Part shown: in pieces, positions 1,597 to 20,434 of the stretch
Layout of the letters: the number at the start of each line of letters is the position of its first letter
Position numbering within the stretch: position 1 is the first letter of the stretch
From: a virus
Strand: one strand, 5' to 3'
IMG/VR virus record: IMGVR_UViG_3300031758_000466
Span: 1 to 27,155 of that record
DNA length: 27,155 bases
The notes under the pieces: model-generated
What the model was told of the DNA's origin: nothing
The model's database searches: none
The model's input: only the letters and a program-made list of their open reading frames with translations
Position numbers and translations under genes: made by a program

Positions 1597-3177
1597 TTAT
1601 TCTACCTGACTTCCGTCACCTTTTGGATTCCTGGCTTCCCCAGAAATATCTGGAGAATTATTTTGTCTTTCTTGATCCCTAGTTCTTGTCTGTCCAGCCT
1701 GAGCTCTAATTTCTGCCTGCTGCTGAGGCTTTAATTGAATAACTTCATCTCCGCCTTCAATTGCAATTTTACCCATTCTTAGACGAACTTCATTAGGGGT
1801 AATAACCTGCATTCTTAAATATCTCTCATCAATCTTTGACTGAGTATCTTCATCTGTAAGGCTAAGTTCATTAAATTTAATTTGAACGGCATCTGTTTTT
1901 TCAGCAATAATTAAATTAATTTTTTTCTCTAATCTCATTTGTGCTGGGCGACAAACCTGCTCTTTAAATGTTTTATCCGCATCTCTTGCTGCAGCTAAAT
2001 TAATTCCTTCTGGAATACCAATTTTAGAAATTGGAGTTCTGTGTGCTAAAAGAATTTCATCTCTATTTGCTTTACGATAAACATTAAATGATGATTCCTG
2101 TGCTCCAGCCTCAATTGGATCCATTTTAAATTCAACCTTTGAGTCAGGCGTATCTGGTGGAAGAGGGACATAAAGAGACCTATGGTTTTTGCCCTTTAGT
2201 CCAACCTGGAAAAACTCAAGCAATTTTCTTTCTGACTCTGGTGAAAGTTTGGCACCCTTAACAGTAATAATATATCTTGGAACAGCCTTGTTCTGGAAAT
2301 AGTCAAGGTTGTACTGACCAGAAAATTCATTTCCTGCAAGAGCTACTTGTGCAGCAATAATATCTGGAATACCGTAGTAATTATCCATAGGAGTATATTT
2401 CTTTAAATGAATAATTTCGTTTGGTCTATCTAGTCCGCCAGCAATTGGATTCGGTGTATCTTGATCGCCAAAGTTTCTGAAGAAAACAGCCTTTCCGTAA
2501 AGCAACTGAATAAAGCCATCACGTAATCTTCTTACACGCATTGTCTTTGCTGGAATATGTCCAATGTATCCAATATCTCCACGAGTTGTTCTGCCTATTT
2601 CAATAAAGCCATTACCAGTTGCTTCTAAATCTGTATACGCTTTAATAAGAGTTTCTGTAAATGTTTCTTCATCATTTACATCCTCTAGCCACTGCTCTAA
2701 ATCTTGTCTTAATTTGCCAAGCTTTTTTCTGGCTCTCTGTAATTGTTTTTCATCTGTGATTCCGTCAAGGGCATCGTTTGTTTTTCTTGTCTCATCGAAT
2801 TGATATCCTAGACCTACAATGTTTGCAACTTTTGCATTTATTGCTGCGTAGTTATATGTTGAAACTTCATAAATTTTTGATAGATACTCTAAGTTATATA
2901 TTGGCTGAACCAGATCAAACATGGCGTAACCAGTTATTGCCTGTGCTAGCAAGTTTTGCTGTGTTGATGTACTATCTATTCCAGTAAAGGCTTTAGAAAA
3001 TTCTCTGCCTATTTTTCTGCGAAATGCTGGGCTTAATCCGTTTAGCTTTCTAATGTCATCTAATTGAATATTAAATGGATCATCATGCTCTGTTTCTTTC
3101 TTAAAAGAAAACCAATCAGCAGCACTAGATAGCTGAATTTCTTCATTTACTTCTGGGGTTTCATCAACATGTTCCAT
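1597..3177 (-). CDS. Phage portal protein (HK97/PBSX type)
   Basis: A 526-residue portal, the dodecameric ring at the head vertex through which DNA is packaged and ejected. Typical portal features are visible: an N-terminal tyrosine-rich helix region with VANIVGLGYQF, a central GNGFIEIGRTTRGDIGYIGH segment, the NEIIHLKKYTPMDNYYGIPD motif and the late HRTPISKIGIPEG loop. The C-terminus is Gln-rich and low in complexity, usual for portals. The ATG at 3177 follows GGGAG, which overlaps the stop of the gene before it. The order portal, protease/scaffold, capsid is the standard head cassette. Terminase would be expected further upstream, but it is not in the adjoining sequence of this window. Confidence 0.92.
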   Translation of the reverse strand: MEHVDETPEVNEEIQLSSAADWFSFKKETEHDDPFNIQLDDIRKLNGLSPAFRRKIGREFSKAFTGIDSTSTQQNLLAQAITGYAMFDLVQPIYNLEYLSKIYEVSTYNYAAINAKVANIVGLGYQFDETRKTNDALDGITDEKQLQRARKKLGKLRQDLEQWLEDVNDEETFTETLIKAYTDLEATGNGFIEIGRTTRGDIGYIGHIPAKTMRVRRLRDGFIQLLYGKAVFFRNFGDQDTPNPIAGGLDRPNEIIHLKKYTPMDNYYGIPDIIAAQVALAGNEFSGQYNLDYFQNKAVPRYIITVKGAKLSPESERKLLEFFQVGLKGKNHRSLYVPLPPDTPDSKVEFKMDPIEAGAQESSFNVYRKANRDEILLAHRTPISKIGIPEGINLAAARDADKTFKEQVCRPAQMRLEKKINLIIAEKTDAVQIKFNELSLTDEDTQSKIDERYLRMQVITPNEVRLRMGKIAIEGGDEVIQLKPQQQAEIRAQAGQTRTRDQERQNNSPDISGEARNPKGDGSQVE

Positions 3178-3179
3178 TT

Positions 3180-3521
3180 TTATCTCCCTGGCACAGTGAG
3201 CTTTTTCATCTCATCCTTATAGTTTCCTACATCTAGTGGGTCTGGCACTAAACCTAAATTAAGTCTTGACTGCTGATACTGATATTCTTCATCATCAATC
3301 TTGCGTCTTCCCGACAAAAATAATGGCTGCCCTCTGTCTATACCATATCCAGAAACAGCTTTTCTCAAGGCTTCAATTCTTTCTTTGTTATCCTTCATTG
3401 ATGTTATTGATAGGTAGTTTCCTTCGTCGTCTCCGACCCACTTTCCATCAATTTCCCATACGTAAATTCCGAGTGTTGTTTCCTCGTCTAAAACTTTGGT
3501 GCCGATCTTATTGAAGTCCAT
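3180..3521 (-). CDS. Small hypothetical head-region protein
   Basis: About 113 residues, soluble, acidic and without a family I recognise. It carries IYVWEIDGKWVGDDEGNYL near the start and a basic GRRKIDDEEYQYQQ segment. It abuts the portal gene (2-nt gap) and probably shares its transcript. The start is uncertain: the ATG at 3521 is used here, but an in-frame GTG at 3527 is equally possible. A TATAAT box lies only 16 nt upstream of the ATG, so the leader would be very short. An out-of-frame ATG at 3531 sits exactly six bases after that box. The position suggests a head or packaging role; no function can be read from the sequence. Confidence 0.75.
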   Translation of the reverse strand: MDFNKIGTKVLDEETTLGIYVWEIDGKWVGDDEGNYLSITSMKDNKERIEALRKAVSGYGIDRGQPLFLSGRRKIDDEEYQYQQSRLNLGLVPDPLDVGNYKDEMKKLTVPGR

Positions 3522-3537
3522 AGACACTCATTCTACC

Positions 3538-3543
3538 ATTATA
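3538..3543 (-). promoter_or_regulatory. -10 box (TATAAT) upstream of the head genes
   Basis: A perfect TATAAT on the minus strand in the gap between the LamG-type gene and the head genes. The best -35 match upstream (GTGACA) is 20 bp away, so it is weak. Transcription would start near 3531 and could serve the portal-protease-capsid cassette. Confidence 0.5.
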
Positions 3544-3560
3544 TTTTGTTTAAGTCCAGC

Positions 3561-3583
3561 TTTTGTCACGATTGATGACAAAA
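3561..3583. repeat. Perfect inverted repeat TTTTGTCA / TGACAAAA
   Basis: Two 8-bp arms, 3561-3568 and 3576-3583, around a 7-nt loop. They lie directly after the stop codon of the LamG-type gene and just upstream of the TATAAT of the head genes. No T-run follows the stem on the minus strand, so an operator or a weak terminator are both possible. Confidence 0.5.
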
Positions 3584-5491
3584 TTAAACGTTTTGGATCA
3601 CAATCCAGTCATTATCGAATACTTCGGCTGTATTTTCTGTCAGGGAGAATGACGGTTCAGATATAACAGTAGGGTCTCCATTTATATAAATTTGATAATG
3701 ATCAGTAACTGTTGCAGAATCTAGCTCATAGCCGTATGTAGATATATATTGATATGAAGACTCTGAAGCCCCATCAAGGGAATATCCTAGCTTAACTGAG
3801 TTCATGATTTGATTATCAAAAACCAGGACTACGTGATAAATTTCACCAGCCTTAAAAACATTTGATATTGATGTTTGAGATGTTTTATCTACTCCGTTTA
3901 TATATATCTTTTTTATATTATTTTTAGTTATTGTTCCAGATGATGCCCATGTATATTCTACCCCTATGTCTGGACTTGCTGGCCCTGCGTCATAGGAGGC
4001 CGTATAAGAAGAATTATATAGCCCACCGTCTGCCACAGCCAATCCAGTGTATGAGGTGTTATATAGTCCTCCTAGGACCTCTATAAAAGTAATTTCTTCT
4101 CTGTATACAAGACCTCCGCCAGATAGATCTTTTGGAGTATAGAAAAACTCCATTGATGTGCAAAGTCTTCCTAGATTTAAATAGAATCCAGAGTTTTCTT
4201 TTACTCGTATTCCACTATGCATATTCCTTGATAAAGCTGAGTATCTTTTATTTCCCGCATATGCTTTTGCAAAATAGTCGGGGTCATCTGTCATTTGTGA
4301 TATGTAACTAGAAGAGTTTGTAGCATAAATAATCTGTGATTTATAAAACTTAATTGTAAGGCTTTCCATAAAAGGATTATTTGTTTTATCGTTTGCTGTC
4401 TCAAAAAGCACCTTTATATAAAGGCTATACGATGCATTAAAATCTTCTCCGCTAGTAGAATTTCCATACTGTGGTATTTTAGAGCCATTCTCACATTCAA
4501 CATAGGTTATTCCATCAACACTTGAGTATACGGATACTCCTTCTGTCGCAGACCATTCTATCTTGGAAGCGTCTATTCCATATTGTGATGGTATATATAA
4601 AAACTCAGTAAAAAATGCAGACTGAGAAGTTCCAGATCCAACAGGAATTTGTATTCTATTTTTTATAAAATCATACTCTAGTCCTGCTGTAGTTAAATCT
4701 TTCCAGGGTTTTCTTGCTGGGTAGGAATACTCAAACTTAGTTGATATATTTGTATCGTATATGTCAAACAGCTCTCCAAGGTCTGGAAAGGTCGTATTAA
4801 ATGCTGGTAGTGACTGAGCTAAATTATAATGATTTTGTATTTGAGATTCTGATAAAGAATATCTATATATAGCTACAGAATCAACTAAAAACTTATTTGA
4901 TGAATTAGAAGTGGGTCCGCATTTTAGTGACAAAGATGAATTTGTAAATTTAAAATCATTTAATGTTTTTGAAGCTTGTTTTTCTCCATCTATGTATATT
5001 GATATTTCTGACACCGAATAAACACATACAACATGTACCACACGGCTAAAATTAGATATGGCAAAATCTACTCTAGAATCAATATTAGATAAACCTTTTA
5101 GTGCAAATGCCACGCCATTATTGTTCACAAAAAGTCCGACTCCGTTTGATGCATCTGCAACTACTGGTTCCATTGTTGATGTTAAAGCTTTTGGATAGAT
5201 AAAAGACTCTATCGTAAATGGGTTAAAAGAATAGCTACTATTTGCTATTGGGGTACCTTTACTTATTCCATAATAGTTATATGTTAGTGGAAAAGTTATA
5301 CTTTGTGAGCTAGTTATTTCTACAGAATTTATTCCGCCATATGTGAGTGGCAGAGGAAAAGTAGAAACAGATTGTAAATATACGCCATTATTTCCACAAC
5401 CAGATATATCTATAGCAGTAGTTCCAGACTGTTCATCTAGAAACCAAAACCCAAGTGGATTATCTTTTATGACTGAGTATTTATAAGACAT
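3584..5491 (-). CDS. LamG/concanavalin-like virion protein
   Basis: A 635-residue protein with an N-terminal LamG-like sandwich domain. It shows the classic opening NPLGFWFLDEQSGTTAIDIS, then FTIESFIYPKAL, a VCVYSVSEISIYIDGEKQ strand pair and the closing VDSVAIYRYSLSESQI. A second, more divergent LamG-like region near the C-terminus has IYHVVLVFDN and YQIYINGDPT. Such domains bind sugars and occur in tail or appendage proteins that touch the cell surface. The ATG at 5491 lies exactly six bases after TATAAT with no ribosome site, so the gene is probably leaderless. The longer reading frame to 5539 begins with GTG inside the next gene and is unlikely. Confidence 0.8.
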   Translation of the reverse strand: MSYKYSVIKDNPLGFWFLDEQSGTTAIDISGCGNNGVYLQSVSTFPLPLTYGGINSVEITSSQSITFPLTYNYYGISKGTPIANSSYSFNPFTIESFIYPKALTSTMEPVVADASNGVGLFVNNNGVAFALKGLSNIDSRVDFAISNFSRVVHVVCVYSVSEISIYIDGEKQASKTLNDFKFTNSSLSLKCGPTSNSSNKFLVDSVAIYRYSLSESQIQNHYNLAQSLPAFNTTFPDLGELFDIYDTNISTKFEYSYPARKPWKDLTTAGLEYDFIKNRIQIPVGSGTSQSAFFTEFLYIPSQYGIDASKIEWSATEGVSVYSSVDGITYVECENGSKIPQYGNSTSGEDFNASYSLYIKVLFETANDKTNNPFMESLTIKFYKSQIIYATNSSSYISQMTDDPDYFAKAYAGNKRYSALSRNMHSGIRVKENSGFYLNLGRLCTSMEFFYTPKDLSGGGLVYREEITFIEVLGGLYNTSYTGLAVADGGLYNSSYTASYDAGPASPDIGVEYTWASSGTITKNNIKKIYINGVDKTSQTSISNVFKAGEIYHVVLVFDNQIMNSVKLGYSLDGASESSYQYISTYGYELDSATVTDHYQIYINGDPTVISEPSFSLTENTAEVFDNDWIVIQNV

Positions 5492-5497
5492 AATAAG

Positions 5498-5503
5498 ATT
5501 ATA
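5498..5503 (-). promoter_or_regulatory. -10 box of a leaderless gene
   Basis: TATAAT on the minus strand, followed by six bases and the ATG of the LamG-type gene. Transcription would begin at or beside the A of the start codon. It lies at the 3' end of the preceding hydroxylase gene. Confidence 0.6.
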
Positions 5504-5505
5504 CC

Positions 5506-6054
5506 TTAGAAAGGCTCCTTGAAACAAAATATAGGACACATATATTTAGTGCCTTTTGTTACTGGTTTTGGATCGTGGTAGTATGGTGGATATGAAGGAA
5601 ATATAATCATACTCCCAGCCTTTGGTTTAATATCAAGTCCTTGTTCTGGAAAGCATATGTTTCCACCTTCGTAGTCTTCATTTAAATACAAAACTATAGA
5701 TATAGTTGGTGATTTTAATGCTGTCTTATCTATTGAGTCTACATGTGGGCCCATATAAGCATTTGTAGAATATTTTTGAATTCTATAAAACTCTGGTATC
5801 CATCCAAAAGATAGGCCTGTATTTGCTGTGTAGTCTTTCAAGCATTTATATACTAAATCTTTAATTGGATTTAAAATATGATCTGATAACTTCGGGTTTC
5901 CTCCAATGGAGTGACCATAATGAATTAATCCATCGCTGGAGAACCAATCTTTCCAATCAAGCGAAGGGTCTTTTAATAAATCTATATACTCGTTTTTATT
6001 CTCAAAAAGTTCTGTATAATAATATATATTGTCCTCTAGCTTTTGAGTATTCAT
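5506..6054 (-). CDS. 2-oxoglutarate/Fe(II) dioxygenase (1 of 6)
   Basis: A 182-residue prolyl-4-hydroxylase-like enzyme. This family uses Fe(II), O2 and 2-oxoglutarate to hydroxylate a side chain, releasing succinate and CO2. The metal triad is visible as His104-x-Asp106 (GPHVDS) and His160 (YYHDPKP), and Lys170 ten residues later is the 2-oxoglutarate anchor. The family core LYLNEDYEGGNICFP lies between. It is the last of six such genes, 3 nt after the previous one, and the leaderless promoter of the LamG-type gene overlaps its end. The ribosome site is poor, so translation may depend on coupling. The substrate is unknown; a virion protein is my inference. Confidence 0.88.
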   Translation of the reverse strand: MNTQKLEDNIYYYTELFENKNEYIDLLKDPSLDWKDWFSSDGLIHYGHSIGGNPKLSDHILNPIKDLVYKCLKDYTANTGLSFGWIPEFYRIQKYSTNAYMGPHVDSIDKTALKSPTISIVLYLNEDYEGGNICFPEQGLDIKPKAGSMIIFPSYPPYYHDPKPVTKGTKYMCPIFCFKEPF

Positions 6055-6057
6055 TTG

Positions 6058-6765
6058 TTATTCGTTTTTGCCTTTATAGTTTGGTCTTAGACCCTTTTCT
6101 TTATCTTCTGCCCATAATTTATATTCTTCGTCTTGAGCTTTTCTTACTTCTGCCAATTCGTCAGCCCATTTTTTTCTCTGCTCATCAGTATAAACTGAAT
6201 CTGCATTATCCCAAAACGAGCCTATTGTATATCTTGTACCACTTTTAATTTGTGTAACTTCATGCTCATTTCCATGACCTCCCGCAAATACTGCAAGCAT
6301 GCCTATCTCTGGCTTTATACTAATATCATAATTTTTAAAGTTTAATATTCCTCCAGTAAAATCATCATTTAAATACATAAATGCTGCATACTTGCTTCTT
6401 TCAAATGCTGTTGGATTGCCTTCATCGTCTGAGTTATCTGAGTGAAATGAGGCAAATGCTCCTTCTATCCACTTCTGTGCATGATAACTAACCTCAGAAA
6501 GATCTTTACCTAAAACCTTTTCGCACGCATCTTTTATTCTAGAATTAAGTCTAGCAAAATAGTCTGGGGGCAAGTCAAACATCACCAGCTTTGGATCTGA
6601 CTCCCAGAATCCCATTGCATATGAGTCATAAAAAGATATTTGATTCCATTTTAAAAGATTTGACTCTGCTAAAAATTCTAAATATCTAATTATCTTATTA
6701 GCTTCTTCTTTGGTTACAACGTCTGACACATGGAAAACATCTTCTTTGTGCTTAGTAATTTTCAT
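6058..6765 (-). CDS. 2-oxoglutarate/Fe(II) dioxygenase (2 of 6)
   Basis: A 235-residue member of the same hydroxylase family. His108-x-Asp110 (ASFHSDNSD), His168 (NEHEVTQ) and Arg178 (SGTRYTIGSFW) make a complete active site. The core MYLNDDFTGGILNF is present. Unlike its neighbours it has Arg rather than Lys as the oxoglutarate anchor, and a charged C-terminal tail of about 45 residues rich in Glu and Lys. It has a strong GGAGG ribosome site and its start overlaps the end of the upstream hydroxylase by 14 nt. Sequence divergence from the other five suggests old duplication or separate acquisition and different targets. Confidence 0.88.
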   Translation of the reverse strand: MKITKHKEDVFHVSDVVTKEEANKIIRYLEFLAESNLLKWNQISFYDSYAMGFWESDPKLVMFDLPPDYFARLNSRIKDACEKVLGKDLSEVSYHAQKWIEGAFASFHSDNSDDEGNPTAFERSKYAAFMYLNDDFTGGILNFKNYDISIKPEIGMLAVFAGGHGNEHEVTQIKSGTRYTIGSFWDNADSVYTDEQRKKWADELAEVRKAQDEEYKLWAEDKEKGLRPNYKGKNE

Positions 6766-7534
6766 GCTTTTCCTCCATCTTATGATATCTCATGTTTTTA
6801 GGGTTTTCTATTTCAAGTCTTTCTTCTTCCATTTTAGCCCAACGAACCGCACCATAATGCCTTTGATTCTTTAACCATTCTTCCGAGCCAGCATATGGAT
6901 AAAAAACAAAGTTTCTTACAAAAAATTTTTCCCCTGATGTAATTGTTTTAACTCCATGGAAATAAGGTTCTCCTGATGGGAAAACCAAAATATCTCCAGA
7001 GTCTGGCTTATAAGGATACGTTTCCCCATCCAATAAAAACTCTATTTCTCCACCAGTATAATCGTCATTAAGATAGGTTGTGCATGTTAAAAAGAACTTA
7101 GGCCCTGGCATATCTTTTTCTGAAATCACATAATCTGTGTGATATTGCATGGACATATTATTATTCATTACATCAATATTCGTATCATATTTTGAAAATG
7201 ATGATGTAAGAAGTGAGGCACCTTCGGGAAGATTTAAATTATGTCTTTTTACATAATCAAATATTGCTTTTGAATAAGCCGCATAAACAGAGTCAGACAA
7301 ATACTTTTCGTCATCGTACATTTGACCGTGTTCTCTTGGTTCGTTTGGATCATGTTTTTGCTGAGTATAGGCTCCAAATATCGACCACTGGTCCCATTCT
7401 CTTAAATAATATTTACCTTTTGAAGATGCATAAGATTCTTTAACTATTTCTGCCATTTTTTTTGAATCTGGAAGTAGGTTTTTGTAAACATCAACCATCG
7501 GATAAATTTCAAAAAAATCAAATTCATTACTCAT
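6752..7534 (-). CDS. 2-oxoglutarate/Fe(II) dioxygenase (3 of 6)
   Basis: A 260-residue hydroxylase, the longest of the set. The triad is His132-x-Asp134 (MQYHTDYVI) and His193 (YFHGVKT), with Lys203 as oxoglutarate anchor. The core TTYLNDDYTGGEIEF precedes a double-stranded beta-helix stretch ending DSGDILVFPSGEPYFHG. The first 120 residues have no counterpart in the shorter paralogs and may hold substrate contacts. The ribosome site is AGAGAT, and the start overlaps the end of the next upstream gene by 8 nt, so translation is probably coupled. All catalytic residues are intact. Confidence 0.88.
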   Translation of the reverse strand: MSNEFDFFEIYPMVDVYKNLLPDSKKMAEIVKESYASSKGKYYLREWDQWSIFGAYTQQKHDPNEPREHGQMYDDEKYLSDSVYAAYSKAIFDYVKRHNLNLPEGASLLTSSFSKYDTNIDVMNNNMSMQYHTDYVISEKDMPGPKFFLTCTTYLNDDYTGGEIEFLLDGETYPYKPDSGDILVFPSGEPYFHGVKTITSGEKFFVRNFVFYPYAGSEEWLKNQRHYGAVRWAKMEEERLEIENPKNMRYHKMEEKHENY

Positions 7535-8237
7535 GCTTATCTCTTTCTAATTCCGTAACTGTCCAAAAAAGCGGGAATGTATACCTACATCCTTCTTTAA
7601 CAACATTAACTCCATGAATATAGTGCATGTCTCCAGGGAAAAAATATGCTCCCCTGGCCTTAGTTTTAAACACTATGCTCTGCTTAGGAAAATATAGTTC
7701 TCCTCCAACATAGTCATCATTAATATAGAATACTGTTCCTATGTCATACCAAGGAAATTCGTTTTCTGTTCCAGCGTCTGGACCTTCATGAAGTTCTTTA
7801 TCTGCGTGTGGGAATTGCATGGTTCCAACTGGCCATCTTACTATGGCTGGTGCAGCTGGTTGAACTGTAACATTAAATTTTTCTTCGATAATAGGCTGCA
7901 TTCTATTTGTTAAGTTCTCTAGTATTTCAATTACTTTTTCGTCAGCCTTTTTCAATGTTCCAACTGTTGCAACACGATTTTCCCAAACCCTGTGGTCGTA
8001 TATGATGTTGCCATTTTCATTCCATTGTGACTCCGTTATATCCCACAATGTGTTATTTTTAGCAAAATTTAAAAGGTATTCTTGCTCTTCAATTGTCATA
8101 AAATTTTCTAATTCTACGATATTATCTGAAGAGTTTCCAAAATAACCTGATGGAGTAATTGACTTCCTGGCGTACCTTACTCTCTCTTGAACCTTTTGAT
8201 TAGCATCTTGTATCATTCGTATACCTTTCTTTGCCAT
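7527..8237 (-). CDS. 2-oxoglutarate/Fe(II) dioxygenase (4 of 6)
   Basis: A 236-residue hydroxylase with His144-x-Asp146 (MQFPHADKEL), His208 (YIHGVNVV) and Arg218 (GCRYTFPLFW). The core VFYINDDYVGGELYFP is the family signature. The N-terminus is basic (RVRYARKSITPSGYFG) and is followed by NIVELENFMTIEEQEYLL, resembling the front helix of prolyl hydroxylases. The start at 8237 lies inside the end of the upstream gene, a 25-nt overlap, without a strong ribosome site. Met8 is an alternative start. As in gene 2 of the set, the anchor is Arg, so the array splits into Lys-type and Arg-type enzymes. Confidence 0.86.
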   Translation of the reverse strand: MAKKGIRMIQDANQKVQERVRYARKSITPSGYFGNSSDNIVELENFMTIEEQEYLLNFAKNNTLWDITESQWNENGNIIYDHRVWENRVATVGTLKKADEKVIEILENLTNRMQPIIEEKFNVTVQPAAPAIVRWPVGTMQFPHADKELHEGPDAGTENEFPWYDIGTVFYINDDYVGGELYFPKQSIVFKTKARGAYFFPGDMHYIHGVNVVKEGCRYTFPLFWTVTELERDKHE

Positions 8238-8944
8238 AATTTCTTTTTATATTGTCCGTTTTCAGTTGTTCTCAAAATTTTTGAAGCTTTATTTTTTATT
8301 TCATTCATTTCTTGTTCTTCTTTATAATCTAATTCCATATTCCAATCTTCTCTTTTAAATGGAAATATTTGAAGATATGGTGTTCCTGCTGGCAATAAAC
8401 CAGAAAAATCTTTTCTTAAAAAAAATGGAGTAAGGCCTGGTATTTCTAACATATCGCTATCTATTATACCAGCAGTAGTTATAAAAGGTAAATCATATCT
8501 ATTCATTGGAGACATAAAAATTGCACTATAACCCTTTTCTAATTTAACTCCCCAATTTGGATACCAATGAAAATGTTGTGCTTCGTATCCATAAGGAACC
8601 TCAAACCCTTCCATTGGAACCCTAGACCCAATAAAGCTTTCATATCCTGGCTCAGTTTTAGCCAACAATAAATTGTTTTGTGTATCCTTATAAAACATAA
8701 TGTCACAGGGTGTCGTTAAGTAGTATCCGCTTAAAAATATGTCTAGCAAGGCTGGGCAAGACTTAAACCCAAGTATTTCTGAGCCCCATTGGTGCCTTAA
8801 AACTTCTTCCTTTCCTTCTTCCTTCCAATACTTATTTGCAGAAGAAAACCATTTGGGAACTTGTCTTTTTCCTGGCTTGGGGGAAAGGTCTGGGTTATCA
8901 TTGTTGTATAATTGATGAGAAACAAATGTTATTTTTTTATTCAT
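8213..8944 (-). CDS. DUF6065-like hypothetical protein A
   Basis: A 243-residue soluble protein. Its landmarks are CPALLDIFLSGYYLTTPCDI, a HFHWYPNWGVKLEKGYSAIF segment, and LPFITTAGIIDSDM leading to PAGTPYLQIFPFKREDW. The order of these blocks matches the neighbouring gene at 8946-9641 (polar start, hydrophobic GW/GY turn, a strand pair, then a TP..(Q/S)I.P segment), so I read the two as distant paralogs. Similar hypothetical proteins lie near structural and oxygenase genes in marine phages. No catalytic motif is evident. The ATG at 8944 is chosen over an in-frame TTG at 8956. Its end overlaps hydroxylase 4. Confidence 0.65.
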   Translation of the reverse strand: MNKKITFVSHQLYNNDNPDLSPKPGKRQVPKWFSSANKYWKEEGKEEVLRHQWGSEILGFKSCPALLDIFLSGYYLTTPCDIMFYKDTQNNLLLAKTEPGYESFIGSRVPMEGFEVPYGYEAQHFHWYPNWGVKLEKGYSAIFMSPMNRYDLPFITTAGIIDSDMLEIPGLTPFFLRKDFSGLLPAGTPYLQIFPFKREDWNMELDYKEEQEMNEIKNKASKILRTTENGQYKKKLWQRKVYE

Positions 8945-8945
8945 A

Positions 8946-9641
8946 TTATTTTTCAATCACCTTTAATTTAATTGATTTTACTTCATGGTTACCTAATTTA
9001 TTTCCTTCTGGGTCTATAGCGTCTCTGTAAAAGTTTGTCCATAGTCCCTTAGAAGTTTTTTCTTTTACTATATCTAAATGTTTTTCACCATATTGACTGG
9101 GCTTTAATATCTCTATTCCAGAATAAGAAACACAAGACCCTTGAATTTCTGATAAAGATATTGGAATTATAGATGAAATTGGAGTATTTGCTTTAATTGT
9201 TATTATTTGATTTGGCTTTAATATTCTTAAAGCGCAGGGAAGTTCTCCTTGAAAAAATGAAGTGCTTATAAGAGTTGTAAATGATTGATATTCATCTGTA
9301 AATAAATTAGGTACGGGCATTTGCAACAAAGTAGTGTTTTCATTAGTTCTAAAAACCAAACCTGTCTTGAAGCTTATTGTTCCATTTGCTCTGCCTAAAT
9401 TACAATATTTATGCCCCGAAAGAACCCTAACGTGATGACTAGACGTATCTGATATTCCATCCCAGACAAAAGATATATCTTCTGGGTATGATATTCCCCA
9501 TCCCAGCGAATTTGTAAGTGTAACTGGAAAACATTTATAGGCATGGGCATCTACAGTATTATCCATCCAATCTCTTTTTACGGAAAGCTGAGATATATTA
9601 GCAGAATCTTCTGTATTTTTATAAACTAAAATATCATACAT
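8946..9641 (-). CDS. DUF6065-like hypothetical protein B
   Basis: A 231-residue protein that looks like the DUF6065 family, from VKRDWMDNTVDAHAYKCFPV followed by NSLGWGISYPEDISFVWDG. The biochemical role of that family is not known to me; members are seen in bacteria and phages, often near secondary-metabolism or oxygenase genes. The middle (FKTGLVFRTNENTTLLQMP) and the SIIPISLSEIQGS segment are beta-rich, compatible with a small double-barrel fold. The start overlaps the upstream hydroxylase by 8 nt. Its place inside a run of hydroxylases suggests a joint task, perhaps presenting or binding the same substrate; this is inference. Confidence 0.65.
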   Translation of the reverse strand: MYDILVYKNTEDSANISQLSVKRDWMDNTVDAHAYKCFPVTLTNSLGWGISYPEDISFVWDGISDTSSHHVRVLSGHKYCNLGRANGTISFKTGLVFRTNENTTLLQMPVPNLFTDEYQSFTTLISTSFFQGELPCALRILKPNQIITIKANTPISSIIPISLSEIQGSCVSYSGIEILKPSQYGEKHLDIVKEKTSKGLWTNFYRDAIDPEGNKLGNHEVKSIKLKVIEK

Positions 9642-10299
9642 AATTCTCTGTATATCTTTTTTCGATCTCTCTGTATTCTGGAGTATGTGGTGCTTCTAAA
9701 TAATCAAGCATGGTAACTATAGAGTATTTAGTGCCAGAAGTTACTGGCATCGCAGCATGAGAATATATAAATGATGAGGGGAATAAATAAAGATCTCCCG
9801 CCCTGGGCTTTATTTTTAAATTAAATTTGTCAAAAAATAGCTCGCCTCCTTCGTAGTCGTCATTAATATATCCAACTGAAGAAAGTACGCATATATAAGA
9901 ATATCCGTGATCTGAATGAATTTGAAAATGTTGATCTTGGCCATATTTAATAAAGTTAAATGATTCCCAATAGTTTAGAGGAGCCAAGCCAAACATTTGT
10001 CTATAGTCTTCTACTGGAGCTAACTGTACCTTGTACGAATCTTCCCAAATTTTTTCTAACTTTAGAGTAGACTCACTTTTACCAGCATCATCCCATGTAT
10101 TTTTTTTAATTTTAAAATCTGAACAATCTCTATATCTTTTATCTACCAAGGCATATCCAGTTTTTGCAGTTTTCCATTGATTTACATCAGAGCTATCTGA
10201 TAAAGTTTCTTCTAGTCTATTAATTAAATTCATTTCTGGCGTAAATACATTTCTATAGACAACAATACCTGGACCTAGAAATTCAGCATTACTTAACAT
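9634..10299 (-). CDS. 2-oxoglutarate/Fe(II) dioxygenase (5 of 6)
   Basis: A 221-residue hydroxylase with His128-x-Asp130 (FQIHSDHGY), His181 (YSHAAMPV) and Lys191 (SGTKYSIV). The core VGYINDDYEGGELFF is intact. Its N-terminus FLGPGIVVYRNVF closely matches that of the upstream paralog (IIGPGIVVYKNIF), and both share the VFPS/LFPS..IY.HAA.P ending, so these two are the most recent duplicates in the array. A GGAG site sits six bases before the start. Twelve nucleotides separate it from hydroxylase 6. Confidence 0.88.
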   Translation of the reverse strand: MLSNAEFLGPGIVVYRNVFTPEMNLINRLEETLSDSSDVNQWKTAKTGYALVDKRYRDCSDFKIKKNTWDDAGKSESTLKLEKIWEDSYKVQLAPVEDYRQMFGLAPLNYWESFNFIKYGQDQHFQIHSDHGYSYICVLSSVGYINDDYEGGELFFDKFNLKIKPRAGDLYLFPSSFIYSHAAMPVTSGTKYSIVTMLDYLEAPHTPEYREIEKRYTENYV

Positions 10300-10311
10300 T
10301 TATACTCCAAT

Positions 10312-10920
10312 TTATTTATATTGGTCACTTCTGTGACCCTTTTGTGTTCTATCGGTCATTAAGGCCAATACATATTTTGTTCCCGCTTTAATTGGATATG
10401 CTGCATGTGCATATATATAAGCAGATGGGAAAACTACTAAATCTCCAGACTCTGGCTGATAGTTAATGTCAAAGAATTTAAAGTGGAGGTTTCCTCCATC
10501 GTATTCATCATTTAGATATCCTACACAGGAGACAGTGTATCTAACATCTGGTCCGTCATCTGTATGATAATTAAAAAAATTATTTACAGAGTATTTAATA
10601 ACATTTAATGCTTCAAAATATTCTACTTTAACTGGATAATCTTTTTCATAGTCTAACAAACATTCTTTAATTTTTATCATTACTTCATCGTATAACTCTA
10701 ACAACTCTTTTGAGTTTTTTGCCTCTTTATCTAAAGAAATGTTGCTATACACAAAAGATTGACAAAATCTACCTTCACCTTGATATAGGGAACTTTCATT
10801 GGTTTTAGCTTTAGCCCAAGAATCTCCTATATTTTGCTCATATCTTTCTACTAAATTCATAGATTTTAAAAAAATATTTTTATATACTACTATACCTGGA
10901 CCAATTATATTTTTTATCAT
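10312..10920 (-). CDS. 2-oxoglutarate/Fe(II) dioxygenase (6 of 6)
   Basis: A 202-residue hydroxylase, first of the six in transcription order. The triad is His119-x-Asp121 (FNYHTDDGP) and His172 (YAHAAYPI), with Lys182 (GTKYVLALM) as oxoglutarate anchor. The core VGYLNDEYDGGNLHF and the strand GDLVVFPSAYIYAHAA are characteristic of prolyl-4-hydroxylase-like enzymes. It pairs with hydroxylase 5 as a close paralog. The start lies 1 nt after the stop of the small cysteine protein; the ribosome site is weak, again suggesting coupled translation along one long message. Confidence 0.88.
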   Translation of the reverse strand: MIKNIIGPGIVVYKNIFLKSMNLVERYEQNIGDSWAKAKTNESSLYQGEGRFCQSFVYSNISLDKEAKNSKELLELYDEVMIKIKECLLDYEKDYPVKVEYFEALNVIKYSVNNFFNYHTDDGPDVRYTVSCVGYLNDEYDGGNLHFKFFDINYQPESGDLVVFPSAYIYAHAAYPIKAGTKYVLALMTDRTQKGHRSDQYK

Positions 10921-10921
10921 A

Positions 10922-11167
10922 TTATTCTTGATCTTCTCTATGCCATTTACCTATAGGACACTCAGCATTTGAAAGAGTTGTTTTTGCAGGCATATAGCAT
11001 TTACATTTATCGCACTGTTTTGTCGGCAAAAAAAATTCACAGCCCATGCAAAGACTCATTCTTTTATCTATAATTGACTGCTCACGTATTTTTTTATTTG
11101 GGTCAATTAAGTGCCATGGCCTAGAATCACCTAAACTTTCTTTCCATTCTTTCCATTTAGACATCAT
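10922..11167 (-). CDS. Small six-cysteine protein, DUF6171-like
   Basis: An 81-residue protein with a polar, Trp-rich first half and six cysteines in the second half at 40, 43, 52, 55, 57 and 70: C-x2-C-x8-C-x2-C-x-C-x12-C, ending in CPIGKW. This matches small DUF6171-type proteins that travel with phage structural genes. The pattern suggests one or two bound zinc ions or an iron-sulfur site; which one cannot be told from sequence. It lies directly upstream of the hydroxylase array. An iron-related role beside Fe(II) enzymes is tempting but speculative. Start codons at 11167 and 11164 are adjacent; the first is used. Confidence 0.7.
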   Translation of the reverse strand: MMSKWKEWKESLGDSRPWHLIDPNKKIREQSIIDKRMSLCMGCEFFLPTKQCDKCKCYMPAKTTLSNAECPIGKWHREDQE

Positions 11168-11179
11168 TTATTCTTTCTA

Positions 11180-11602
11180 CTATTTTAATATTAAATTTTT
11201 GCTAGAGTCCCAGATATCTCCAAATCCAACGGAATCTTCTTTGGAAACATCTACTATAATCACATTGCCATCAAAAGCTGCTCTGTACTTTGCAGAATTG
11301 ATACTATCTTTATCCATAGATATGATACCAAAAATTTTATTGTTTGACAAGAACACGTAAGCAATATCATTGGGATTAAACTCTCTAACACCTTCTTGAT
11401 TATCAATCATAAATTTATTATCTACTAACGTGGCGCCTATCTTAATATTATTAAGGTCTGGGGCCATAATAGCCTTTGATCCCATAGCAATTGACTCCCT
11501 ATACCGTTTATCTATATCTGTATCTTTTTCAAAATACAATATATCAAATATTTCGTATAGACCTTCTTCTATTTCTATGCACAAAGCATATTTGCTTGTC
11601 AT
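11180..11602 (-). CDS. Hypothetical protein upstream of the hydroxylase array
   Basis: A 140-residue soluble protein of unknown family. It begins ALCIEIEEGLYEIFDILYF, has EFNPNDIAYVFLSNNKIFGI in the middle and ends WDSSKNLILK. The alternation of hydrophobic and polar residues suggests a beta-rich fold. The ribosome site is a weak AGAAAG about nine bases from the ATG. It lies between the FFGPP-repeat protein and the six-cysteine protein on the same strand, so it is probably co-expressed with the virion and hydroxylase genes. Confidence 0.7.
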   Translation of the reverse strand: MTSKYALCIEIEEGLYEIFDILYFEKDTDIDKRYRESIAMGSKAIMAPDLNNIKIGATLVDNKFMIDNQEGVREFNPNDIAYVFLSNNKIFGIISMDKDSINSAKYRAAFDGNVIIVDVSKEDSVGFGDIWDSSKNLILK

Positions 11603-11642: not shown

Positions 11643-12527
11643 TTAACCGATACATGAATTGCCTTCACAGTATGTTCCATATGGACACTGGAAAGAACAG
11701 AATGAAGGAGGAGAAAAGAACCCTGGCGGACCGAAGAACCCTGGCGGACCGAAGAAAGTAGGTGGACCGAAGAAAGTAGGTGGACCAAAGAAGTTTGGCG
11801 GACCAAAGAAGTTTGGCGGACCAAAGAAGTTTGGCGGACCAAAGAAAGTAGGTGGACCAAAGAAAGTAGGTGGACCGAAGAAGCTCGGTGGAGAGAAGAA
11901 TGTAGTAACTGGTCCAACTCTTTTTGCCACAGATGTACCGTTGGCATTAAGAGCATATATATCATAGCTTTGTGCAGATCCACCAGTTTCATCAATATTC
12001 TTTGAAGTTACAAGAATTCCAGTATACGAAGGTCCATCTGTAGAAGTCACTGTATAACTTGCTATAGCTTTTCCTCCAGTTGCTGGAGCATCCCATGTAA
12101 TATCATCTCTATTTGCAACTGTTGAAGTAACTGAAGCTGTCTGAATTGCTTGAGGAACAGTCGTTGCTGTTACTGAAGATGATGTTGTGGATGCAGAAGA
12201 CCCTACTGCGCTATTTGCAACAATTGTAAATGTATATGCTGTATTAGAGGCAAGGCCTTGGAATGTATATGGGCTTGAAGAAGCTGTTACAGTATATGTG
12301 CTTGGAGTTGTTGTAATTGTAAATGAGGATGCTGATGCAGATCCAGAAGGAACTGCAAATGTTAATGTGACAGCTCCACCAGTTCCAGCCGCATTTGCCT
12401 CAGAAGTTGTATTTGCTGTTGCTAGATATGGTCTTGATGTCCCAACATCTGTTGCGCTAGATATAACTACTGCTTCTGGCTGACTTATCTGACCTGAAAC
12501 TTTACCTGTTCTTTTACCTGCTGCCAT
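11643..12527 (-). CDS. Fibronectin-III-like virion protein with FFGPPx repeats
   Basis: A 294-residue protein, probably a fibre or appendage. Residues about 50-130 read as a fibronectin type III domain (VTLTFAVPSGSASASSFTIT, then YTFQGLASNTAYTFTIVANS), and about 130-205 as a second, poorer one. Residues 210-275 are eleven tandem six-residue units FF(G/S)PPx. The last 19 residues are cysteine-rich (CSFQCPYGTYCEGNSCIG), likely a small disulfide knot. The Gly-Pro-Pro units resemble the sequences that prolyl-4-hydroxylases act on, and six such enzymes follow on the same strand. It has an AGGAG ribosome site and lies 19 nt after the large fibre gene. Confidence 0.8.
   Translation of the reverse strand: MAAGKRTGKVSGQISQPEAVVISSATDVGTSRPYLATANTTSEANAAGTGGAVTLTFAVPSGSASASSFTITTTPSTYTVTASSSPYTFQGLASNTAYTFTIVANSAVGSSASTTSSSVTATTVPQAIQTASVTSTVANRDDITWDAPATGGKAIASYTVTSTDGPSYTGILVTSKNIDETGGSAQSYDIYALNANGTSVAKRVGPVTTFFSPPSFFGPPTFFGPPTFFGPPNFFGPPNFFGPPNFFGPPTFFGPPTFFGPPGFFGPPGFFSPPSFCSFQCPYGTYCEGNSCIG
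11703..11900 (-). repeat. Eleven tandem 18-bp repeats coding FFGPPx
   Basis: Exactly 198 bp of 18-bp units in frame. In translation order the sixth residue reads S, T, T, N, N, N, T, T, G, G, S, and the two end units have Ser in place of Gly. Neighbouring copies are identical or nearly so, with CCA/CCG alternation, which indicates expansion by slippage or unequal recombination. Confidence 0.95.
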
Positions 12528-12546: not shown

Positions 12547-14508
12547 TTATGCTGTTGCTAAATCGCCGATTAATACCCAAGTGTTTGCTGCACGTTTGAA
12601 AAGTGTTGCAGATGACCACTGGGCTCTTAAGAAAGCTCCTGGAGTCGCATTTACTGTAACCCCACCTGCTCCAACAATTCTAACTCCTCCAGTATTTGTT
12701 CTAAGAACATCTATGGCAGTGCCAATTGGGAAGTTTAGTGTTGAATCTGCTGGGATTGTTATATCTACTGCAGATCCACCTGTGTGTGAAACTTCAATTA
12801 GATCGTCTCTTTCTGTTAGAGCTGAAAGAGTATATGCTGCGGTCTTTTGAATAATTGTAGTCTGTGATGGTACGCCTTCTTTTGTTTGTGTTCCATCTGT
12901 AAAGACAACTCCTGCTGCGGTTAAGTTATTTAGCTGAAGGTTATCAAGTGATCCTTCAGTAAAATCAACCGTAGTTGTAGGTTCTGTTGTTACACCTTTA
13001 AATATCTTCCAAATATCAGCAGAAACATCTCTTACAAAACCTGAGTGTTTAGCTGTTCCGTCATTGTATCCAACCACAATACCAAGGTCAACTGTGTTTG
13101 CTGGATTTTGATGAGCTAACTGTACAAGACTGTCTTCGATTACAATAGATGTTGATGATGCGTTAAAGGATGTACCATTAACTGTTAAATTCCCATCAAC
13201 AACTACGTTGCCGTCAACTTCCATATTTCCAGTAAATGTTTGATTTGCTGCATTTAAATAAGCTAGTTGTGCTGTATCAGAGATTCCATGAATAGATGTG
13301 GTATCTGTTGCATGTGAGCTTAAATCAGAAGATAATGCTTTTGCATCTAGTTGAGTCTGAATTGCTGAGGTAACTCCGTCAACATAATTAAGCTCTGTGG
13401 CAGTTGCTGTTACTGCAACATCTTCATTAATCTTTGGGCTTGTTAAAGTCTTGTTTGTTAAAGTTTGTGTATTACTTGCTGTTGTTAAAACAGAAGTATC
13501 TGAAATTCCGTGAACGTTTGTAGTGTCATTCTCGTGATTTGTTACTGCTGTGCCAATTGCTGAAGCTGCTGCGATTCCTGCTGCTGTGATAGCATTTGTC
13601 TGAGCATCTGATGCTTTTCCATCTGCATAAGATTGTGTTGCTAATAAGGATGTATCTGCAATACCGTGAATTCCAGTTGTGTCCGAAGCGTGTGAGTCTA
13701 GATTAGCAGAAGAAGCTTTGGCATCTAACTGAGTTTGAATTGCAGAAGTTACGCCATTAAGATATCCAATTTCAGTATCTGAAACATTTGCAACAACTGA
13801 TTGTTTGCCATCTATCTGAGTTTGAATATTTGATGTGATACCTTGTAGGCGACCAATGTCAGTATCTGAGACACCAGCAACAAGTGGTTGCTTTCCATTT
13901 AGTTGTGTTTGAATTGCTGAAGATACTCCATTAAGATATCCAATTTCAGTATCTGAAACATCTGTAACTTTATCTTGCTTATTACTACCCAATGAGTTTA
14001 ATGCATTTGCAATTGTTACAGCATAATTTTGATCATCATTAATTGCTGCCGCTAATTCATTTAATGTATCTAATGCGCCTGGAGCACCATCAATTATTGC
14101 TGTAATATCTGATGTTAAAGCTACTGTACCTGTAGCATCTGGGAATGTAATTGTTCTGTCAGCTGTTGGGTTTGTAACAGTAAGAGTAGTTTCAAATTCA
14201 TTATTTGTAGAGCCCTCAACAATAATAGATGCTCCTGGAACTAGAAGGTTCTTGCTTGAATCTAGTCCTGCTACACCAGACACCGCTCCAATATCTGTTA
14301 GCTCTACATAATTAACTAACTGGTTTGAGAGATCAAGGAATCCTGGGTCATTGGCATAACCTAATGCTGACCAAGTTGCTGTTCCATCACCGAACTTAAT
14401 ATACTTTGTGTCTGTCTCAAGACCCATTTCTCCAGCTTCTAAAACTGGGTTGGCGGAAGTCCATTGAGCCGCTGTACCTCTTCTTACTTGAATTCTTACT
14501 GTTGACAT
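12547..14508 (-). CDS. Tail fibre protein with repeated modules
   Basis: A 653-residue fibre protein. It opens with STVRIQVRRGTAAQWTSANP and LEAGEMGLETDTKYIKFGDG, the short trimerising start domain found in many phage fibres and in the major tropism determinant. Repeats of the type VSDTEIGYLNGVTSAIQTQL recur at roughly residues 180, 210, 240 and 380, alternating with SHATDTTSIHGISDT units. The C-terminal region (about 420-653) holds a triple-stranded beta-type shaft and cap. An AGGAG ribosome site precedes the ATG at 14508. The protein probably binds the host surface. Its repeats are shared with the fibre at 14975-16798, so the two can recombine. Confidence 0.88.
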   Translation of the reverse strand: MSTVRIQVRRGTAAQWTSANPVLEAGEMGLETDTKYIKFGDGTATWSALGYANDPGFLDLSNQLVNYVELTDIGAVSGVAGLDSSKNLLVPGASIIVEGSTNNEFETTLTVTNPTADRTITFPDATGTVALTSDITAIIDGAPGALDTLNELAAAINDDQNYAVTIANALNSLGSNKQDKVTDVSDTEIGYLNGVSSAIQTQLNGKQPLVAGVSDTDIGRLQGITSNIQTQIDGKQSVVANVSDTEIGYLNGVTSAIQTQLDAKASSANLDSHASDTTGIHGIADTSLLATQSYADGKASDAQTNAITAAGIAAASAIGTAVTNHENDTTNVHGISDTSVLTTASNTQTLTNKTLTSPKINEDVAVTATATELNYVDGVTSAIQTQLDAKALSSDLSSHATDTTSIHGISDTAQLAYLNAANQTFTGNMEVDGNVVVDGNLTVNGTSFNASSTSIVIEDSLVQLAHQNPANTVDLGIVVGYNDGTAKHSGFVRDVSADIWKIFKGVTTEPTTTVDFTEGSLDNLQLNNLTAAGVVFTDGTQTKEGVPSQTTIIQKTAAYTLSALTERDDLIEVSHTGGSAVDITIPADSTLNFPIGTAIDVLRTNTGGVRIVGAGGVTVNATPGAFLRAQWSSATLFKRAANTWVLIGDLATA

Positions 14509-18412: not shown

Positions 18413-20347
18413 CTAAGCTGATATATCTACTATCTCACAATTGCCATCTGATGTACAGGCAAGGGTCTGTGTTCCAGAAGTTCCGTCCTCTGTTTCGTAG
18501 AAAGACAAATCTTCCCAACGAATCGATTTTGGCATTTGTGCTAAAACTGCTTCGTATTCTTCTTTTGTAACTTCTTGGTATGGAGCCTGCTTATAAGTAT
18601 GATCAGAGTGTGGCAAGAATGAGATTCCAGAAACTTCATCAAAATGCTTGTATACCCAAGCTCCTACTTCCATCCATTCATCTTCTTTTACAGATACAGT
18701 GATTGAAGGCTTGTGCTCACACCATGCACGTTGATAAACAAGCCAAGTATTTAAATGCTCTATTGCTGTTAAATCATTTCTAACAATCGCACCCTCTGGT
18801 GCCTTAACTGGAAATGAAAATACGTATGTATCGTTTGGCTTCATAACATCATCTTCTACTGGAATTCCGACCTCCTTTAAAAATGTAGAGATTGGATCTC
18901 CTTTTGAGCCACGTACTGTACGAATATAATATGGTGAATGCCATGCATGCATTCCTGAAGACACCCCGACCAATTGGGAAACTGTTCCAGAAGGCTTTAC
19001 ACATGTGATAGCAGCAGACTCTTGAATCCCAATCTTCTGAGCCTCTTCTGAATTAATTGTTCTTGCGTATTCACGAAGTCCAACTAAAACTTCTTCTAAT
19101 TTCTTGATATCTTGTTTACCTGAGAAGAATTTATGTCCGAATTGTCCAGTTAAAGAAACTCCTAATAAACGCTCTTCTTCTGTGTTATCTTTCCAGATTT
19201 TACGAAGATACTTAAAGTCTGTTAGCGTTGATTGCCAAGTTCCAAGAATTGTTGCAAGACGTACTTTATTTGAAATATCCTCAACTGTATCCTTTTCACG
19301 TAATACGACTTCTGAAAGATTACAAAACTGATAAGGACGGAGAATAATTTCGGAACACGGGTTTGTTCCATAATGGATTTCAGGGTCTCTACGGCCATAC
19401 TTCGCTGCCTGCTTCTGCGCTGCCGCAACATTATAGATTCCACGTTCGCCAGACTTCGAGTCATAAAGAGATTTCCATTCTGCAATAAATTGCTCCATTT
19501 CTGGCTTACGTGAGTAAGCAACAGAGTTATTTGAAAGTGCACGTTGTGAATTGTTTTCCCACCAGTTCCCAGATTTTGCTTGAGCCATTTCAATGTCATT
19601 AATATTTGACAAAGAGATCATTGCTGATCTACGGACTCCTCCAACTACAACAATTTCTCCAATCTTACACATAATATCATGTGCTTCAATTGGTTTTAGC
19701 TGTCGTCCTGTTGCAGATTTAAACTTTGAAATAGTAAAGTCAAATAGGTTGATAAGTGGCTGTGGACCAGATGATCTTCCGCCCATTGTCTTAAGTCGAG
19801 CACCAGATGGGCGAAGTTTGCTTACATCAACAGAAGGAATATGTCCTGACCATAATAATGCAAGTAGCTCACGATATGCTTTAGCCCAACCCTGCTTTGA
19901 ATCTTCAACAGTAATTACAGTCGTAGACTTTTCTAAAGTTTCTGGAACGGGAGGAAGTTTATTAACATATTTATATTCAACAGAGAACCCTACGCCTGTT
20001 CCGCACATAAGAATATACATTGTTTCGTCAAATGAGCGTGGTGAATCTACTGGAACAAACGAGCAATTATAACCCGCAACATGATCTCTATCTAATGCAG
20101 CACCTGCAGTCATTACTGATCTCATTGATGGCATTACATCTCTATTATAAACCGCCTCTTTCATTTCTTGAAGAAGTTTTGAATCTGGAATATAATCTTT
20201 AGTTTCTTTAAGATGTTTTGTCATAAAGTCAAAATAGCGATCTACTGTCTCACCCCATGTTTCACGACGATTTTCTTCTGGAATCCATCTTGCATATCTA
20301 GACAATGCAATAAAGTTTTCATATGGGTTTTCAATAGTTCTTGACAT
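18413..20347 (-). CDS. nrdJ: Class II (B12-dependent) ribonucleoside-triphosphate reductase
   Basis: A 644-residue enzyme that turns ribonucleotides into deoxyribonucleotides with adenosylcobalamin as radical source, supplying DNA precursors. By comparison with the Lactobacillus leichmannii enzyme, Cys331 in NPCSEI is the thiyl-radical cysteine (Cys408 there), with Asn329 and Glu333 as partners. Cys342 (FCNLSE) and Cys95 (YNCSF) are the reducing pair; the 11-residue spacing from 331 to 342 is the same as 408-419. The C-terminal CTSDGNC pair (631, 637) reloads the active site. It is about 95 residues shorter than the L. leichmannii enzyme. No small subunit or activase is nearby, as expected for class II. 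The host must supply B12. Confidence 0.93.
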   Translation of the reverse strand: MSRTIENPYENFIALSRYARWIPEENRRETWGETVDRYFDFMTKHLKETKDYIPDSKLLQEMKEAVYNRDVMPSMRSVMTAGAALDRDHVAGYNCSFVPVDSPRSFDETMYILMCGTGVGFSVEYKYVNKLPPVPETLEKSTTVITVEDSKQGWAKAYRELLALLWSGHIPSVDVSKLRPSGARLKTMGGRSSGPQPLINLFDFTISKFKSATGRQLKPIEAHDIMCKIGEIVVVGGVRRSAMISLSNINDIEMAQAKSGNWWENNSQRALSNNSVAYSRKPEMEQFIAEWKSLYDSKSGERGIYNVAAAQKQAAKYGRRDPEIHYGTNPCSEIILRPYQFCNLSEVVLREKDTVEDISNKVRLATILGTWQSTLTDFKYLRKIWKDNTEEERLLGVSLTGQFGHKFFSGKQDIKKLEEVLVGLREYARTINSEEAQKIGIQESAAITCVKPSGTVSQLVGVSSGMHAWHSPYYIRTVRGSKGDPISTFLKEVGIPVEDDVMKPNDTYVFSFPVKAPEGAIVRNDLTAIEHLNTWLVYQRAWCEHKPSITVSVKEDEWMEVGAWVYKHFDEVSGISFLPHSDHTYKQAPYQEVTKEEYEAVLAQMPKSIRWEDLSFYETEDGTSGTQTLACTSDGNCEIVDISA

Positions 20348-20434
20348 TTTAAGTGTGACCTCTTCTTCCGCCTTACGGATTAATAAATTTTAATGAAACC
20401 TAAGTGTATCAAACTTTTTTTTAAGAGTCTAGGG

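Follow-up and report, generated by a model that had tools for sequence, protein, structure and literature searches.

A phage array of six prolyl-hydroxylase-type oxygenases associated with a neighbouring FFxPPx repeat protein

The DNA considered here (the window) is a phage contig of 27155 bases, virus record IMGVR_UViG_3300031758_000466 of IMG/VR, whose left half carries on the minus strand tail-fibre-like genes, followed by the genes for portal and maturation protease and by the first part of the capsid gene. Between the tail-fibre-like genes and the portal lies a block of enzyme genes which, in reading order from 10920 to 5506, consists of H6, H5, D2, D1, H4, H3, H2 and H1, where H1-H6 are 2-oxoglutarate (2OG)/Fe(II) oxygenases and D1 and D2 are related to the DUF6065 family (Table 1). 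All of these are on the minus strand, head to tail, with a spacing of +12 to -25 nt, and all six oxygenase open reading frames are complete and uninterrupted, so that the touching or overlapping genes and the six intact enzymes described in an earlier sequence-only reading of this DNA are borne out. That reading was confined to positions 5506-10920. Just upstream, and outside those positions, lies REP, which encodes one or more fibronectin type III (FnIII) domains and a proline-rich hexapeptide repeat, and it is with this repeat that the enzymes turn out to be associated.

Table 1. Features of the enzyme block and of the adjoining repeat gene in the window
Feature	Position	Strand	Evidence and remarks
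REP, proposed substrate	11643-12527	-	FnIII domain(s) (fn3 E 3e-9), followed by hexapeptide repeat (F-F-[GAS]-P-P-x)n and Cys-rich C-terminal end
18-bp-period tandem repeat encoding FFxPPx units	11724-11883	-	Tandem Repeats Finder
Small gene between REP and enzymes	11180-11602	-	11-member family in related loci, likewise between repeat and enzymes
Small Cys-rich DUF6171-like/phrog_13558 gene	10922-11167	-	Relatives in up to 22 related loci
H6, 2OG/Fe(II) oxygenase, prolyl-hydroxylase type, Lys anchor	10312-10920	-	PF13640 5.5e-10; triad intact
H5, 2OG/Fe(II) oxygenase, Lys anchor	9634-10299	-	PF13640 2.2e-12; core of two phage lineages
D2, DUF6065 protein, predicted dUTPase-like fold	8946-9641	-	PF19541 2.1e-25
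D1, remote DUF6065 homologue (phrog_7084)	8213-8956	-	phrog_7084 3.7e-33
H4, 2OG/Fe(II) oxygenase, Arg anchor	7527-8237	-	phrog_61 2.7e-10; triad; core of two phage lineages
H3, 2OG/Fe(II) oxygenase, Lys anchor	6752-7534	-	PF13640 6.8e-9; triad
H2, 2OG/Fe(II) oxygenase, Arg anchor	6058-6765	-	PF13640 3.2e-8; triad
H1, 2OG/Fe(II) oxygenase, Lys anchor	5506-6054	-	PF13640 4e-12; triad

For five of the six oxygenases the match to PF13640 (2OG-FeII_Oxy_3) exceeds the curated cutoff (E 4e-12 to 3e-8), whereas H4 stays below it (18.9 vs 27 bits) and instead matches the PHROG 2OG oxygenase family phrog_61 (2.7e-10). In the alignment, the iron-binding H-x-D...H triad is complete in all six, with a Lys (H1, H3, H5, H6) or an Arg (H2, H4) exactly ten residues after the second His, and the triad positions are retained in 215-218 of the 221 non-redundant oxygenase relatives used for the alignment and tree. 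A profile of H1-H6 compared with solved structures gave collagen prolyl 3-hydroxylase 1 (P3H1, 2.8e-12) and a bacterial prolyl 4-hydroxylase (3e-11) as top matches, followed by PiuC-type enzymes, PHD2 and LH3. Collagen prolyl 4-hydroxylases (P4H) have Lys at +10, while prolyl 3-hydroxylases (P3H) and lysyl hydroxylases (LH) have Arg, and therefore both anchor types of H1-H6 have precedents among protein hydroxylases. Judged from sequence, the best reading of H1-H6 is that they are prolyl-hydroxylase-type 2OG/Fe(II) oxygenases, presumably acting on peptidyl-proline. An identity as TET/JBP-type DNA-base hydroxylases was considered and rejected, as PF12851 (Tet_JBP) was matched by H6 only, at E 0.071 and with 12.8 bits against a cutoff of 34.9.

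The ratio of nonsynonymous to synonymous substitution rates (dN/dS) of H1-H6 against the close relatives L005 and L006 is 0.05-0.28 (0.05 for H5); in comparisons with L008, which is more distant, the ratio is in some cases higher, dS being near saturation. Decay into pseudogenes is rejected, given the conserved triad and purifying selection. The proposal that the Lys/Arg split marks two lineages survives in part: in the tree of 221 oxygenases the H2 clade (35/35) and the H4 clade (26/26 readable members) are all Arg and the H5 and H6 clades all Lys, but the H1 clade and the weakly supported H3 clade are mixed. H5 and H6, taken before as recent duplicates, are the closest pair among the six and yet only 37% identical, which does not agree with a recent origin. 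H6 is a lineage-specific paralogue of H5, of which loci L003-L006 carry an additional copy (68-70% identical to H5).

The protein encoded by REP consists of an fn3 domain (E 3e-9), followed by the repeat (FFGPPTFFGPPTFFGPPN...) and a Cys-rich end, and its dN/dS against close relatives is 0.18-0.19. Its N-terminal part has no match in 50,697 phage records. Over 1066 units from 111 distinct arrays, the consensus of the repeat unit is FF-[A/S/G]-PP-x, where x is mostly G, S, A or R; a second form, FPPFFPPHFPP, also occurs. A collagen-like substrate was rejected, since over the same 1066 units the unit is FF[AGS]PPx and not the Gly-X-Y triplet. In many relatives the repeat is followed not by the Cys-rich end but by a domain with Hint/intein features (weak matches to PF14890/PF13403, best 4e-5, under the cutoff), as in L042 (6521-7852), L080 (2330-3673), L283 (937-2142) and others, some of which terminate in His-Asn. 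Such a domain might cleave or attach the end of the repeat protein.

A scan of IMG/VR based on D1 returned 80 loci with three to nine 2OG genes each, in which D1 is nearly always accompanied by D2, and low 2OG counts mostly reflect contigs that are cut short. The usual gene order in these loci is [H6] - H5 - D2 - D1 - H4 - H3/H2 - H1. As the set was picked by D1 it is by itself no proof of linkage, although neither gene order nor copy number was a criterion of selection; with conservation over 80 loci, chance clustering is rejected. Scattered and unlinked copies, which the sequence-only reading had named as the pattern that would tell against a dedicated protein-modification system, are not what the relatives have: the array is conserved, mostly in the same order. 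Nearly all D1-found loci with sufficient upstream DNA carry a Pro-Pro repeat gene just before the block.

The association was also approached from the opposite side, with a DNA pattern for three FFxPPx units that holds no enzyme information and was scanned over IMG/VR (at least 78 new loci). Among the matches listed, a 2OG gene was present in 65/78, two or more in 53/78 and D2 in 54/78, whereas in 80 loci found with a control Pro-repeat, (PPT)n, and similar in summed length, at least one 2OG gene was present in four cases and two or more, or D2, in none. Where at least 4 kb of downstream DNA was available, again among the matches listed, 30 of the 32 repeat genes were followed on the same strand by a 2OG gene no more than 3.5 kb away, and D2 was present for 27; both genes lacking a 2OG gene this close are second repeat genes, with the module elsewhere on their contigs. 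At the level of whole contigs, 18 repeat records among the matches listed, mostly picked because the fetched DNA held few or no 2OG genes, included 16 with at least one such gene, and the other two are fragments of 8.5 and 13.5 kb. Outside viruses the pattern is rare, with only 11 matches in bacterial and archaeal genomes totalling 257 Gb, and no 2OG gene was found near these in the fetched DNA. Finally, loci were collected through the portal gene, a choice that favours neither trait, with sufficient upstream DNA required and two Streptomyces phages added: repeat and module were both present in 14 members of this portal-anchored clade and both absent from 19, none was discordant and four were cut off. 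One of the loci counted as cut off, L256, was at first a candidate for a module without a repeat, which was rejected because it begins about 1.4 kb upstream of the first oxygenase, within genes for proteins resembling Asp/Asn beta-hydroxylase (AspH) and sulfotransferase. The association of the enzymes with the repeat is thus near-obligate and specific, and the idea of a dedicated protein-modification module is strongly supported by it and by the conserved order, hydroxylation itself being the presumed reaction.

The two genes in the middle of the array had both been described as DUF6065-like, which applies fully to D2 (PF19541, 90 bits vs a curated cutoff of 26.6) and only remotely to D1, which has no Pfam match and in a profile-profile comparison (hhalign) aligns with D2 at E 1e-4 and a probability of 58%; by sequence, D1 appears to be a remote homologue of D2/DUF6065. 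Profiles of both against PDB sequences gave nothing useful. The AlphaFold2 model of D2 has a predicted local distance difference test score (pLDDT) of 93, and the Foldseek matches listed for it are all dUTPases (best 5.9e-5, template-modelling score by target up to 0.72), while the model of D1 (pLDDT 89) matches a dUTPase weakly (1.6e-3). A dUTPase-like fold is therefore predicted for D2, and D1 probably has the same fold. No counterpart of D2 turned up in 50,697 phage records, and in the portal-fetched loci D2 was never seen without the oxygenase array. D1 is an optional partner of the module, because D1-type genes occur without it in three loci of the portal clade (L236, L261 and L284) and, without the array, in about 50 records of haloarchaeal viruses, including Halophage HF1 (L088, 7911-8795). 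One of the three, L261, is a sister phage which at 2057-6858 has three D1-type genes and one oxygenase, and no repeat. In HF1 the D1-type gene lies near a ribonucleotide reductase gene, and the fold may have had an older nucleotide-related role.

A second lineage (L111, L115, L117, L153, L155 and similar loci) shows no match to the portal of the window type. The T4-type portal family PF07230, tried as a marker for it, had no match anywhere, controls included, and is hence uninformative. Its repeat gene is short and has a different N-terminus (MAADSGKREKRK...), beside which lie H4-like, H5-like and D2 genes and a third, divergent oxygenase. Because the repeat recurs here on an unrelated N-terminus, again beside such genes, the portable core is likely to consist of the repeat, H4, H5 and D2, and the remaining genes look like lineage-specific additions. 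Within the first lineage, nucleotide identity between the window and L005 is 95-100% over the capsid side, the portal and a LamG gene, drops sharply at the 3' end of H1, is 70-96% across the enzymes and REP, and recovers past the adjacent tail fibre. This single comparison fits an exchange in which the enzymes, the repeat and some of the tail-fibre sequence were replaced jointly.

Following these results, it seems probable that H1-H6 hydroxylate the REP repeat, with D1 and D2 as partners, and that the whole constitutes a cassette of a substrate plus its modifying enzymes. REP, which is probably virion-associated, would be co-produced with the enzymes, and the oxygenase paralogues would hydroxylate its repeat, most likely at the Pro-Pro pairs, with different paralogues serving different positions or stages. 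Up to nine enzymes for a unit of six residues would imply steps that are specific in position or order. D1 and D2, as non-nucleotide partners, would most likely be oligomeric scaffolds that bind the repeat or the enzymes. Once hydroxylated, the repeat could become a stiff, extended, polyproline-like stalk that joins the FnIII part to the C-terminal domain; this very hydrophobic, Phe-rich segment could gain solubility, and there could be sites for attaching further groups. One repeat with several positions fits the data better than the separate targets envisaged in the sequence-only reading, the favoured target being the single repetitive one next door (11643-12527). A wider claim, possible and offered tentatively, is that this is an undescribed class of phage protein maturation, namely a multi-enzyme prolyl-hydroxylation line with dUTPase-fold scaffolds that would make a collagen-unlike, hydroxylated polyproline fibre, with one FFxPPx position per paralogue and a cassette that moves between lineages.

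Several points weigh against hydroxylation of the repeat as the function of the array. The need of one repeat for up to nine enzymes is unexplained, the IMG/VR contigs are redundant and fragmentary, and the dUTPase-like fold predicted for D1 and D2 would suit a nucleotide pathway too. Moreover, the portal tree, on which each trait has three state changes and all independent pairs change in the same direction, offers only one to three independent contrasts; alone the test is not significant and amounts to agreement rather than proof. It is conceivable, if unlikely, that the oxygenases act on other virion or host proteins and that REP accompanies them only because both lie in a tail-fibre region prone to recombination, since the genes adjoining REP are tail-fibre-like and have likewise diverged between the window and L005, and since phage 2OG genes without REP exist, for example in cyanophages. 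Such co-travelling is difficult to reconcile with the joint absence of enzymes and repeat from the same genomic slot in portal-bearing sister phages, with the attachment of the repeat to more than one kind of N-terminal domain and its reappearance, next to H4/H5/D2-type genes, in a second lineage, and with the lack of any association of the control (PPT)n repeat with enzymes.

A role in nucleotide or DNA-base modification, in which the 2OG enzymes would oxidise a base or nucleotide and D1 and D2 would hydrolyse or bind a nucleotide, appears very unlikely. The matches of D2, and weakly of D1, to dUTPase/dCTP deaminase folds would agree with it, as would the occurrence of D1 alone in haloarchaeal viruses, near the ribonucleotide reductase gene in HF1; however, among solved structures the nearest relatives of H1-H6 are protein hydroxylases, the sole match to a base-hydroxylase family (H6 to Tet_JBP, E 0.07) is far under the cutoff, the block is situated among structural genes, and the association with the repeat protein would be left unexplained. 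Hardly credible is a pathway for a small molecule or surface glycan with REP as an adhesin that binds the product: the sulfotransferase-, AspH- and GNAT-like genes of some modules could be taken to point that way, but the AspH and sulfotransferase genes suit protein modification equally, and no carrier protein, synthase or sugar-nucleotide pathway was identified as a constant component of the module.

With regard to known systems, the phage array resembles the collagen-modifying P3H1, P4HA and LH3 of animals in its 2OG/Fe(II) family, its HxD...H motif, the Lys or Arg at +10 and the several enzymes for one repetitive Pro-rich protein, and differs from them in being bacteriophage-encoded, in its FFxPPx hexapeptide instead of Gly-X-Y and in its partners with a dUTPase-like fold. 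Cyanophage 2OG-Fe(II) oxygenases (phrog_61, phrog_81, phrog_3531) belong to the same sequence superfamily as H1-H6, but the best matches in annotated records are only about 25-33% identical and fall at one or two sites in each listed record. D2 and D1 belong by sequence to DUF6065 (PF19541) and phrog_7084, families without an assigned function, and are set apart here by their tie to prolyl-hydroxylase-like genes and their modelled dUTPase-like fold. The prolyl 4-hydroxylase of Chlorella virus PBCV-1 is a eukaryotic-virus enzyme, and PBCV-1 is not known to have an FFxPP repeat array, DUF6065 partners or a linked multi-paralogue operon. The likeness lies in a virus-encoded prolyl hydroxylase whose presumed targets are viral proteins that contain proline, as a survey of viral auxiliary genes has it for the PBCV-1 enzyme (Eriksson et al. 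1999, cited in PMC9301287). The survey states that viral use of prolyl 4-hydroxylase 'remains cryptic' (PMC9301287). In the literature covered, which includes few subscription journals and leaves priority uncertain, there was no description of the hydroxylase array, of DUF6065 or of an FFxPP substrate, and nothing matching on phage prolyl hydroxylation of virions. The present system supplies a specific, encoded substrate candidate together with a defined enzyme set, which makes the question of viral prolyl hydroxylases directly testable. If the proposed reaction is correct, bacteriophages modify their own proteins after translation in an elaborate way and with several enzymes, DUF6065 gains a context, and the array would be a compact source of enzymes for hydroxylated Pro-rich biomaterials.

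In some relatives, additional genes lie between the repeat and the array: a sulfotransferase-like gene (L009, 6695-7426), an AspH-like gene (L157, 2083-2691) and a GNAT-like gene (L076, 4696-5244), which would fit further decoration of a protein. In the second lineage, a ferritin-like/di-iron-type protein with a DEARH motif (L115, 9367-10476) and other possible iron oxygenases are encoded a few kb from the module. As to the rest of the window, Stanwilliamsviridae-type Streptomyces phages such as Muntaha and Jollison share with it the order glycosyltransferase - ribonucleotide reductase - ... - portal - protease - capsid, with portals 56-59% identical; the stretch examined in them has neither the array nor D2 nor the repeat. 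The portal and the shared gene order may point to an actinobacterial host. Ribonucleotide reductase and glycosyltransferase lie at 18413-21424 of the window, ordered as in these phages, and because phages without the array have the same gene order, the glycosyltransferase is not specific to the module. The tail-fibre-like product of the gene at 12547-14508 contains the N-terminal domain of the Major tropism determinant (PF18454, 2e-17).

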